Shown piece after piece: positions 35,872-40,172 of a DNA stretch of 64,000 bases. Below the pieces are notes generated by a model. It did no database searches, had not been told where the DNA came from, and was given only the letters and a program-made list of their open reading frames with translations. Source of the DNA: Bacteroidota bacterium (GTDB lineage Bacteria > Bacteroidota > Bacteroidia > 2-12-FULL-35-15); contig CANNHN010000003.1 of NCBI GenBank assembly GCA_947504725.1, forward strand, positions 1 to 64,000. The letters run 5' to 3'. The first letter of the stretch is position 1. Every line of letters starts with the position of its first letter. Made by a program: the position numbers and the translations under genes.

Positions 35872-37134
35872 ATGTTCTACTACTTATTCGATTTTTTAGA
35901 CAAACAATTTGATGTTCCTGGAGCAGGAGTATTTCAATACATCTCTTTTCGTGCTGCAATGGCATTGATTGTTTCGCTTTTGATTTCATTGGTGTTTGGA
36001 AAACGCATTATTAATTTACTACACAGAAAACAAGTTGGTGAAACTGTACGTGATTTAGGATTAACAGGACAATTGGAGAAAAAAGGGACACCAACAATGG
36101 GTGGATTAATTATTCTTTCTGCAATTGTGATTCCAACATTGTTGTTTGCTAAACTTCACAATGTATATATCATATTAATGTTGTTGTCAACTGTTTGGTT
36201 GGGTGCAATCGGATTTTTAGATGATTACATAAAAGTGTTCAAGAAAAACAAAGCAGGATTAGCAGGAAGGTTTAAAGTGTTAGGACAAATCGGATTAGGG
36301 CTTATTGTTGGAATCACTTTATACTGTAATGATGAAGTTGTGGTAAAAGAAAAAATATTTGCTGGGAAAATTCCAACAATGGATGTGATTAGTACTTCTC
36401 AGCAAAACACTCAAATAGCAGTTTATGCGGATGAGCCTATTAAGTCAATGAAAACGACCATTCCTTTCGTGAAAAATAATGAGTTCGATTATTCATCCGT
36501 GCTTTCATTTTTAGGAGATAATTATCAGAAATGGGCTTGGATTATTTTTATTCCGTTTGTCATAATTATTGTTACTGCAGTTTCAAATGGTGCAAATATT
36601 ACAGATGGTATTGATGGATTAGCAACCGGAACATCTGCTATTATTGGAGTAGTATTAGGAATACTTGCATACGTTTCTGGTAATACTGTTTTTGCGGATT
36701 ACCTGAATATAATGTATATCCCTAATTCTGGGGAGCTCGTAATTTTTATTGCTGCATTTGTTGGTGCATGTGTTGGTTTCTTGTGGTACAACTCTTTTCC
36801 TGCTCAAGTATTCATGGGCGATACAGGAAGTTTGGCGTTGGGTGGAATCATTGCTGTTTTTGCAATCGCTATTCGTAAGGAACTTCTTATTCCAATTTTA
36901 TGTGGTGTGTTCTTGGTGGAAAATCTTTCAGTAATGATGCAAGTAGCATACTTCAAACGAATGAAGAAAAAGTTCGGAATTGAATATGCACGTGAAAACC
37001 GACTTTTTAAAATGGCACCCCTACATCATCACTATCAAAAATTAGGAATGCATGAATCAAAAATTGTTTCTCGCTTCTGGATCATTGGAATTATGTTGGC
37101 GGTGTTGACTATTGTAACATTGAAATTAAGATAG
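35872..37134 (+). CDS. mraY: Phospho-MurNAc-pentapeptide transferase MraY
   Basis: Makes lipid I from UDP-MurNAc-pentapeptide and undecaprenyl phosphate. 420 residues, longer than E. coli MraY (360) because of a ~55-residue loop around 160-215 that is usual in Bacteroidota. Ten membrane helices are visible. Signatures: [52 protein letters not shown] and [12 protein letters not shown]. It ends one codon boundary before murD (TAG ATG), so the two are translated in close coupling. Confidence 0.97.
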
Positions 37135-38475
37135 ATGAAGCGCTTAGTCATACTTGGTGGTGGCGAAAGTGGTGTGGGTACTGCTGTACTTGCACAAAAA
37201 AAAGGATTTGAAGTTTTTCTTTCAGATAAAGGAAAATTAAAAGAGAAGTACAAAGACGTTCTTTCAAAATATGGAATCAAGTGGGAAGAAGAAAAACATT
37301 CTGAAGACTTGATATTAAATGCAGATGAAGTGGTGAAGAGCCCCGGTATTCCCGACAAAGCTGATTTAATAATTGCTTTGAAAAACAAAGGAATTTCGGT
37401 GATATCAGAGATTGAATTTGCTGCGAGATATACCAATGCTAAAAAGATTTGTATCACAGGAAGTAATGGAAAAACAACAACAACATTGCTAACCTATCAC
37501 ATGATGCAAAAAGCTGGATTAAATGTCGGTTTGGCAGGAAATGTTGGAAAGAGTTTCGCAATGCAAGTCGCAGAAAACGACTTTGATTTTTATGTGTTAG
37601 AGTTGAGCAGTTTTCAATTGGATGGAATGTTTGAGTTTAAAGCAGATATCGCGATTCTCTTGAACATCACTCCTGATCACTTAGATAGATATGAGTATAA
37701 ATTAGAAAATTATGCAGATTCAAAATTTAGAATCATCCAGAATCAAACAGAATTGGATGCCTTCATTTATTGCATCGATGATGAAGTGACAATGAATACG
37801 ATTAAAACGAAAGATATTAAAGCAAAACACTATCCAATTTCTATCAAACAAGAATTAGAAATAGGAGCTTACTTAAAAGAAAACAATCAATTAATAATAA
37901 ATACAAATAACACTAATCCCTTATTTATGACAATTCAAGAACTAGCATTACAAGGAAAACACAACATCTACAACTCAATGGCTGCAGGTGTAACCGGTAA
38001 ACTAATTGACATCAGAAAAGAAACGATTCGCGAAAGCCTTTCTGATTTTCACAACATCGATCACAGACTGGAGTTGGTAGGAAATGTTCATGGAATCGAA
38101 TTTATTAATGATTCTAAAGCAACAAATGTTAATTCTACTTGGTATGCTTTAGAAAGTATGAATAATCCTGTTATTCTTATCCTTGGTGGAGTTGACAAAG
38201 GAAATGATTATTCTATGCTTACGGATTTAGTAAAATCTAAAGTGAAAGCAATTATTTGTTTGGGAACAGACAATAAAAAAATTATCAAAGCTTTCGGTGG
38301 ATTGGTTGAAACAATCCTTGAAGCTAAATCTGCAAAAGAAGCAGTTGCGCAGTCGTACAAAATTGGTAAAAAGGGAGATACCGTTTTGTTGTCACCAGCT
38401 TGTGCAAGTTTTGATATGTTTGAGAATTACGAAGATCGTGGAACGCAATTTAAACAAGCTGTTCGCGCACTTTAA
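37135..38475 (+). CDS. murD: UDP-MurNAc-L-alanine:D-glutamate ligase MurD
   Basis: 446 residues. N-terminal Rossmann domain with LGGGESGVGTAVLA, central ATPase with TGSNGKTTTTLLTYH, LELSSFQLD, LNITPDHLDRYE, and the C-terminal domain (about 305-446) with DHRLELV, FINDSKATNVNSTWYAL, LILGGVDKGNDY and LLSPACASFDMFENYEDRG. The Thr of ATN, Lys of VDKG, and Ser and Phe of SPACASFDMF are the positions that contact D-Glu in characterised MurD. It is complete, and directly precedes a free-standing copy of its own C-terminal domain. Confidence 0.96.
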   Translation: MKRLVILGGGESGVGTAVLAQKKGFEVFLSDKGKLKEKYKDVLSKYGIKWEEEKHSEDLILNADEVVKSPGIPDKADLIIALKNKGISVISEIEFAARYTNAKKICITGSNGKTTTTLLTYHMMQKAGLNVGLAGNVGKSFAMQVAENDFDFYVLELSSFQLDGMFEFKADIAILLNITPDHLDRYEYKLENYADSKFRIIQNQTELDAFIYCIDDEVTMNTIKTKDIKAKHYPISIKQELEIGAYLKENNQLIINTNNTNPLFMTIQELALQGKHNIYNSMAAGVTGKLIDIRKETIRESLSDFHNIDHRLELVGNVHGIEFINDSKATNVNSTWYALESMNNPVILILGGVDKGNDYSMLTDLVKSKVKAIICLGTDNKKIIKAFGGLVETILEAKSAKEAVAQSYKIGKKGDTVLLSPACASFDMFENYEDRGTQFKQAVRAL

Positions 38476-38510: not shown

Positions 38511-39020
38511 ATGACAGAGAATAATAAAATAAAAAATTATCACGATAAGTTGAATCAGAACTTGTTGTCGCGTAATCGTGTTCGTTCTTCCGAGGATGAT
38601 CATCAATTGGAATTTGTAGATGAAATAAATGGGATTGCTTTCATCAATGATTCTAAATCGATTCGTTTAACAGCAACTCGTAACGCTTTGGAAGCAATAG
38701 AAACTTCTGTGGTGCTTATTTTGGGCGGGAAGGATGACGATAATGATTATTCTGTTTTGTCGCAACAGATAAAACAAAAGGTTGTAGCTATTATTTACCT
38801 TGGTGATGGATGCGATAAAATTTTAAAAAATTACTCTGCACATAAAATGCTTTTCGCGAAAGCATCGACTATTCAGGAAGCAGTTCAGATTTCATCTGTG
38901 TATGCAATTTCCGGTGATGTTGTATTGTTTTCACCTGCTTGCCCAAGTAATCATTCACATGATACTTATAAAAACAGAGGAAATGAATTTAAGGAAGTTG
39001 TTAAAAGCTTAAAAAAATAA
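38511..39020 (+). CDS. Free-standing MurD C-terminal-domain protein
   Basis: 169 residues: a short charged N-terminus (1-29), then residues 30-169 align end to end with the C-terminal domain of the MurD encoded just upstream (DHQLEFV, GIAFINDSK, LILGGKDDDNDY, YLGDGCDKI, LFSPACPS, YKNRGNEF). No N-terminal UDP-binding or ATPase domain is present, so it cannot be a ligase alone. Expected D-Glu contacts differ: ATN to SIR (49-52), VDK to KDD (74-76), and the Phe of DMF to His (150); the Ser of SPAC(A)S remains. The frame is intact, with clean ATG and stop, 35 bases after murD and 3 before ftsW. I infer a regulatory or scaffolding role. It is not recognised as a named family. Confidence 0.85.
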   Translation: MTENNKIKNYHDKLNQNLLSRNRVRSSEDDHQLEFVDEINGIAFINDSKSIRLTATRNALEAIETSVVLILGGKDDDNDYSVLSQQIKQKVVAIIYLGDGCDKILKNYSAHKMLFAKASTIQEAVQISSVYAISGDVVLFSPACPSNHSHDTYKNRGNEFKEVVKSLKK

Positions 39021-39023
39021 AAA

Positions 39024-40172
39024 TTGAATTTATTTAAATATATAAAAGGAGATAAGGTAATTTGGACAGTAGTGTTGCTGTTGTCCTTGTTGTCGGTGTT
39101 GGTTGTGTACAGCTCGGTTGTGGCTTTGGCGTATCGCTATAAAAATGGGGATACGGCTTCCTATTTGATTAAGCATATATTTATTGTTGCGTCTGGTATC
39201 TTCTTGATGTATTTAATACATAAAGTTAAATATTCCTATTTTTCTCGGATATCTCAAATTGCAATTATATTAGCCGCTCCCTTGCTGTTGTATACTTTGT
39301 TGAATGGAGTTAGTGCTGGTGAAGCATCTCGTTGGTTAGCAATACCGGGAACATCATTGACTTTCCAAACTTCCGATTTTGCAAAACTGGCACTCATTGC
39401 CTATGTAGCTCGAATGCTTTCGATTAAACAGGATGTGATTAAAGATTTTAAACAAGGTTTCTTACCAGTAATTATTCCGGTAGTAGTGATTTGTGCGTTG
39501 ATTTTCCCAGCTAACTTTTCTACTGCTGCTTTACTGTTTTTAACATGTTTGGTGTTAATGTTTGTTGGTAGAATGAATGCAAAACACCTTTGGCTGTTAA
39601 TTGGCTCTGGAGTTGTATTTATTGCTCTGCTTGTTTTGATTATTTGGAATTTCCCAAATGCAATTCCACGCGGAGCTACCTGGAAAGCACGTATCGAAAA
39701 TTTTAGTAAAGGTGATAGTGAAAGTAATTTTCAAGCAGAACAAGCGAAAATTGCTATTGCTAGAGGAATTGTTCCGCAAGGTCCAGGAAATAGTATTTCA
39801 AGAAATTTTTTACCACAAGCATCTTCCGATTTTATTTTTGCCATTCTTATCGAAGAGTGGGGATTGATAACTGCTGTTATTATTGTGTTCCTATACATTG
39901 TTTTACTCTTTCGAGGTGTACGTATTGCAAATAAGAGTGAACGAACGTTTGGTAGTTTACTCGCCATTGGATTAACATTTAGTTTGGTGTTCCAAGCAAT
40001 GATTAATATGGCTGTTGCTGTGAATTTATTCCCAGTAACTGGTCAACCTCTTCCATTAATAAGTATGGGAGGAACATCCATTTGGTTTACTAGTATTTCA
40101 ATCGGAATTATTTTGAGTGTAAGTAGAGAGACAGAAATTTCTCAGGAAGGAGGCGAACTTGCAACCGCTTAA
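39024..40172 (+). CDS. ftsW: Peptidoglycan polymerase FtsW (SEDS family)
   Basis: Septal glycan-chain glycosyltransferase working with FtsI. 382 residues with ten membrane helices; SEDS signatures VVYSSVVALAYRY, the loop LLNGVSAGEASRWLAIPGTSLTFQTSDFAKL, and NMAVAVNLFPVTGQPLPLISMGGTS near the C-terminus. It starts with TTG at 39024, 3 bases after the orphan MurD domain; no in-frame ATG precedes the first membrane helix. It overlaps murG by 14 bases, so translation is coupled. Confidence 0.94.
   Translation: MNLFKYIKGDKVIWTVVLLLSLLSVLVVYSSVVALAYRYKNGDTASYLIKHIFIVASGIFLMYLIHKVKYSYFSRISQIAIILAAPLLLYTLLNGVSAGEASRWLAIPGTSLTFQTSDFAKLALIAYVARMLSIKQDVIKDFKQGFLPVIIPVVVICALIFPANFSTAALLFLTCLVLMFVGRMNAKHLWLLIGSGVVFIALLVLIIWNFPNAIPRGATWKARIENFSKGDSESNFQAEQAKIAIARGIVPQGPGNSISRNFLPQASSDFIFAILIEEWGLITAVIIVFLYIVLLFRGVRIANKSERTFGSLLAIGLTFSLVFQAMINMAVAVNLFPVTGQPLPLISMGGTSIWFTSISIGIILSVSRETEISQEGGELATA
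40148..40153 (+). promoter_or_regulatory. Strong Shine-Dalgarno site deciding the TTG start of murG
   Basis: AGGAGG lies 5 bases upstream of TTG 40159, inside the end of ftsW. Such a perfect site is rare in this window and fixes the non-ATG start of murG. Confidence 0.75.

Follow-up and report, generated by a model that had tools for sequence, protein, structure and literature searches.

The window, by which we mean the whole 64,000-nucleotide stretch of Bacteroidota DNA analysed here, contains a run of genes in the order murE-mraY-murD-orphan-ftsW-murG-murC, in which 'orphan' denotes a small open reading frame (ORF) resembling only the C-terminal domain of MurD. The features discussed below are as follows; MurD positions such as Arg302 are numbered as in the 437-residue E. 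coli MurD structures.

35872..37134, + strand: mraY, named from sequence and gene order; synteny reference
37135..38475, + strand: complete canonical murD, 446 aa (TIGR01087, 398 bits; invariant active-site set), parent of the duplication
38511..39020, + strand: orphan MurD C-terminal-domain gene, 169 aa (profile and BLASTP match, orthologues)
38511..38597, + strand: N-terminal tail, residues 1-29, kept within the genus (alignment); residues 1-20 predicted disordered
38598..39017, + strand: Mur ligase C-terminal domain, residues 30-169 (BLASTP, predicted model, structural matches)
38604..38606, + strand: Gln at the position of Arg302 (ATP side), from alignment to MurD
38661..38663, + strand: Ile at the position of Thr321 (D-Glu contact), from alignment and PMC3527612
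38736..38738, + strand: Asp at the position of Lys348 (D-Glu contact), from alignment and PMC3527612
38943..38960, + strand: PSNHSH replacing ASFDMF (A414 to P, S415 kept, L416 to N, D417 to H, His at 419)
39024..40172, + strand: ftsW, 3 bases past the orphan stop codon
40159..41268, + strand: murG, named from sequence and gene order

An earlier note on this DNA described an intact 169-residue ORF between murD and ftsW that aligns with the C-terminal domain of the upstream MurD and lacks the UDP-binding and ATPase domains, and each of these observations was borne out. The ORF (38511-39020) has an ATG start and is flanked by complete murD and ftsW genes. Its residues 30-167 match residues 309-446 of the adjacent MurD in a gap-free alignment (44% identity, BLASTP E 5e-35), a resemblance that, judged by sequence, is far beyond chance, and these two proteins are the only matches to the orphan in the window genome. 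Mur_ligase_C (PF02875) is the sole Pfam domain, scoring 29.9 bits against a gathering cut-off of 28.4. The whole-protein MurD model TIGR01087 gives 122.8 bits, below its cut-off of 211.95, and matches at profile positions 305-440 only, so that neither the N-terminal (UDP-binding) domain nor the central ATPase domain was found in the ORF by Pfam or TIGR01087, and the three-domain MurD architecture is absent. The possibility, also raised in the note, that the missing N-terminal domains are joined by a frameshift is ruled out, because the neighbouring MurD is whole.

The predicted structure agrees with this assignment. An AlphaFold2 model built with 51 orphans has a pLDDT of 83, with 93 residues at or above 90; pLDDT exceeds 80 over most of the C-terminal domain and 90 over many stretches of it, and residues 1-20 are disordered (pLDDT below 50). 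Its best structural matches are solved MurD C-domains (Z 19-24 over ∼140 residues), and the orphan is thus predicted to adopt the Mur ligase C-terminal fold that PF02875 describes. A fold of the MurD-orphan read-through chain from locus L047, run without an alignment to look for docking, reached a pLDDT of only 32 and was uninformative.

In characterized MurD, D-Glu is held by K348 and T321 at one carboxylate and by S415 and F422 at the other (PMC3527612). Of the four C-domain residues R302, T321, K348 and S415, the window orphan keeps only the last, with Q, I and D at the other three positions. The earlier note had listed three altered D-Glu contacts, two of which (T321 to I, K348 to D) are real; the third, the Phe of DMF, falls at position 419 and is distinct from F422, which aligns with a Tyr in both Bacteroidia MurD and the window orphan. 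Four changes not on that list are R302 to Q, A414 to P, L416 to N (the MurD of Bacteroidia has F at this position) and D417 to H. The accompanying idea of a selective loss of D-Glu residues therefore holds in part: T321 and K348 are gone, but so is R302 on the ATP side, and T321 is kept in 36 of 59 orphans across the class.

The retention of such an ORF between murD and ftsW in related genomes, proposed in the note as a check, was found in 14 of 36 sampled congeners (∼33 scorable); at least 17 further families have an orphan beside ftsW. Two genomes of the window's genus lack any match, and nearly all other non-carriers have murD followed directly by ftsW. Because more than half of the genus lacks it, the orphan is dispensable in some backgrounds. 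Its presence requires four changes on the MurD+FtsW tree of the genus, versus 11 for shuffled labels. One non-carrier (G018) has a C-terminal remnant between murD and ftsW (L045:4597-4733, the decayed last ∼30 codons of an orphan; it scores 108 in the alignment, against at most 43 in 100 shuffles), which shows loss by deletion; it was the only remnant in the six murD-ftsW gaps of non-carriers that were searched.

Beyond the genus, 296 genomes of class Bacteroidia were searched for a second match to the orphan. Some families have one throughout (8/8, 7/7, 6/6 and 11/12 sampled genomes), and fetched loci place the orphan beside or upstream of ftsW, with murD nearly always immediately before it, in at least 18 of the families sampled: f1, f4, f5 (part), f9, f10, f12, f13, f24, f27, f29, f31, f36, f40 (part), f41, f43, f45, f54 and f73. 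Family f73 has two orphans in tandem, both strongly diverged, between murD and ftsW (G311, L175:2534-3638). Second matches in two genomes (G116, G040) proved to be unrelated weak matches. No orphan was seen in the 89 genomes sampled from the phylum's other classes. It is also absent at the named loci of Mucilaginibacter, Pedobacter, Chryseobacterium, Flavobacterium, Tenacibaculum and Barnesiella, an absence that may be the reason the gene has gone unnoticed; the four named carriers are metagenome-assembled Bacteroidota.

Neutral evolution, which would have spoken against a function, is not what the orphans display. Pairwise omega for the four closest pairs in the window's genus is 0.083, 0.069, 0.111 and 0.115 (95% bootstrap upper limits 0.155, 0.119, 0.187 and 0.191), values that are rough for two of the four pairs because dS is near 1 there. 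These ratios of ∼0.07-0.12 point to purifying selection at the amino-acid level; MurD omega is lower still in the same pairs, a mark of stronger constraint. A functionless, decaying remnant of a tandem duplication would fit the patchy occurrence within the genus and the decayed copy in G018, yet this reading, which we find scarcely credible, is already contradicted by a dN/dS of ∼0.1, by the lack of stops in the intact orphans fetched, by fixation in whole families and by the age that the tree implies. It is also very improbable that the stretch is retained at the DNA or RNA level, for an ftsW promoter or translational coupling inside the copied murD 3' end: the 3-base spacing to ftsW in the window would suit such a role, but selection acts on amino acids (omega ∼0.1) and the spacing to ftsW varies widely, with ∼120-240 bases or more in f12 and two extra ORFs in one f5 genome. 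In that genome (G217, L196:1581-2307), the starts of the two small ORFs between orphan and ftsW resemble export signals.

In a maximum-likelihood tree of the C-domain, 37 orphans are split from 53 MurDs by one branch (support 91/82), rising to 98/87 when very long branches are removed. With the most divergent copies added (99 rows), the free tree needs two changes, yet constraining the orphans to stay together improves the score by 13.3 log units (p-AU 0.70). An early, quick FastTree tree did not recover one orphan clade. Because the orphans form one clade in the better-resolved trees, a single ancient duplication early in class Bacteroidia, followed by many losses, is likely; it is likely rather than proved, as the alignment has only 142 columns. 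A separate origin in each family is unsupported, given the 13.3 log units in favor of the orphans-together tree, and a recent local duplication is ruled out, since orphans do not group with the MurD of their own genome.

Comparison of 59 orphans with 152 MurDs (two frameshifted MurDs, L126 and L144, were left out of residue counts and trees) separates what has been kept from what has drifted. All 59 orphans share H301, N316, S318, the Pro of SPA, R425 and G426, and S409 (56/59) and S415 (52/59) are nearly invariant. T321 is accompanied at intermediate levels by K319 (33/59) and R302 (27/59), and D417 (22/59), A414 (19/59), K348 (14/59) and L416 (13/59) are kept least, whereas the active-site set is retained in 149-152 of 152 MurDs at each position. 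By these counts, the core of the fold persists together with part of the pocket, and catalytic and specificity residues drift, differently from family to family. No orphan-specific invariant surface stands out: strongly conserved positions are almost all common to MurD, a pattern that would also fit simple fold maintenance.

The residue pattern bears on two alternatives. One is that the orphan is an in-trans or backup catalytic C-domain that pairs with the first two domains of MurD. Family f12 lends this some color, as its orphans keep nearly all MurD active-site residues, making a ligand-binding or in-trans role possible there; at the f12 loci (L036, L187, L191) the MurD C-domains themselves lie on long branches. 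For the orphans as a whole we consider it highly unlikely, because MurD itself has an intact active-site set almost without exception (149-152 of 152 genomes per position) and no complementation is needed, and because the window orphan lacks R302, T321 and K348. The other alternative is a ligand sensor, in which the MurD-C pocket has been re-tooled for a nucleotide precursor or amino acid and reports pool size to the divisome. Part of the pocket scaffold is indeed kept (S415 in 52/59, N316 and S318 in 59/59) with varying specificity residues; however, these residues differ between families without a new consensus, unlike a conserved ligand site, and the orphan has no effector domain, so we judge a sensor improbable.

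Two families provide natural experiments. The f41 genome G075 has a disrupted dcw cluster, in which one contig holds mraY and murD and a separate contig carries the orphan immediately ahead of ftsW (loci L201 and L200 compared). In f72, the dcw cluster of all 11 genomes is without a canonical murD yet retains a MurD C-domain ORF. That ORF sits between mraY and ftsW in 10 genomes; the eleventh genome is fragmented, and its contig stops within the orphan. Apart from this ORF, the orphan profile matches nothing in f72 but a MurD-type ligase encoded elsewhere in the genome, fused to MurL in five genomes (open frames of 885-922 residues); the family is represented by L206:2764-5394 (-) in G284 and by genomes G410-G419. 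MurL was found in 11 of 11 genomes (10 genera), with matches below the curated cut-off of a model named for Xanthomonadales, and MurI in none of 11. Because MurL is present and MurI absent, as in PMC8788868, the f72 ligase presumably uses L-Glu; that paper records the MurL/MurD2 route from Proteobacteria and actinobacteria alone. MurD2 resembles the orphan in being MurD-like with a changed Lys348 position (PMC8788868), but it is a complete ligase, and the window genome has both a canonical MurD and a MurI above its cut-off.

The f72 copy may have a separate origin from the other orphans. Its N-terminus starts earlier in MurD, at about residue 267 (by eye), and its least diverged copies branch within MurD, away from other orphans; forcing f72 into the common orphan clade costs 7.7 log units, a placement that the test does not reject (p-AU 0.28). 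Under either reading of its origin, f72 had reason to keep the C-domain alone once the catalytic enzyme was dispensed with; the domain therefore acts by itself, without the parent enzyme, and this family offers the strongest clue to its function. Because f72 keeps the orphan although canonical MurD and MurI are gone, binding MurD is not needed for such a domain to be retained.

These observations weigh on the main rival to the adaptor role that we favor, namely that the orphan is a MurD regulator, binding the N-terminal and central domains of MurD and mimicking or competing with the mobile C-domain to tune the ligase. The orphan is a paralogue of the domain it would mimic and adjoins murD in nearly all carriers, and MigC offers a precedent, binding the central region of MurD and inhibiting it (PMC12208494), although MigC is a COG0523 GTPase unrelated to the orphan. 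Against regulation, the f72 orphan is kept after canonical murD has been replaced, and the f41 orphan stays with ftsW, away from murD. We hold this reading to be unlikely overall; since the f72 copy is possibly of separate origin, the case is not closed for the window copy, for which regulation could still be right.

That a duplicated domain was kept for a new role, as the earlier note proposed, is strongly supported by its occurrence in at least 18 families, by purifying selection, by the single clade of the better-resolved trees and by recurrent loss of catalytic residues. The orphan is probably an undescribed non-catalytic part of the cell-wall building machinery of Bacteroidia. More specifically, and tentatively, we favor a small non-catalytic adaptor, a pseudoenzyme domain derived by MurD duplication, that docks precursor enzymes near MraY, FtsW and MurG. 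The 3' part of murD would have been duplicated early in class Bacteroidia; the stand-alone C-domain would have lost catalytic residues and become a pseudoenzyme domain, and purifying selection has kept it in the dcw cluster beside ftsW. The protein would work in the cytosol as an adaptor: its folded Mur-ligase-C part, which carries a flexible and variable N-terminal tail, would serve as a platform on which Mur ligases (MurD-type or others) or MurG dock close to MraY/FtsW. We infer the protein-protein adaptor role and the identity of the partners, with support from precedents: GatD docks on the C-domain of MurT (PMC6113224), Mur ligases interact with FtsW in mycobacteria (PMC3605390) and MurE-MurF binds MurG (PMC6420597). 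The adjacency of the orphan to ftsW may be historical.

A broader reading, which we hold somewhat more doubtfully, is that the MurD C-domain has a second, non-catalytic function in Bacteroidia peptidoglycan synthesis and was split off at least once by duplication, and probably again in f72, when a MurL/MurD2 takeover displaced the rest of canonical murD; the domain would then be an undescribed structural part of a MraY-FtsW-MurG assembly. Known systems offer partial parallels. Like canonical MurD, the orphan has a C-domain close to that of its neighbor (44% identical) and to solved structures (Z 19-24), but it lacks the UDP- and ATP-binding domains, falls short of the TIGR01087 cut-off and, in the window, has lost R302, T321, K348, A414 and L416. 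MurT, of the MurT/GatD amidotransferase, is likewise a divergent Mur ligase whose C-domain serves as a protein docking platform (PMC6113224); unlike the orphan, a C-domain alone, it is catalytic and has the central ATPase domain that is absent from the orphan ORF.

We found no description of a stand-alone MurD domain or a Mur pseudoenzyme in open papers, the literature that our search covered. Few bacterial gene clusters have been studied as closely as the dcw cluster, and still this extra conserved gene is present in many uncultured Bacteroidia families. It suggests that roles of Mur ligase domains are separable from catalysis, and it is relevant to the old question of whether the precursor enzymes assemble into a complex. 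Because f72 has lost the catalytic gene but kept a C-domain, the family amounts to a natural experiment in which the role of that domain can be tested directly.

Diverged relatives of the orphan also lie outside the dcw cluster. Second, more diverged copies in f4 and f45 (L033:4283-4822, L204:3617-4156, L203:3195-3833) are each convergent with an aldehyde dehydrogenase gene, and the f41 genome G075 encodes a diverged, 205-aa MurD-C-like protein with eroded active-site motifs (L202:2871-3488).
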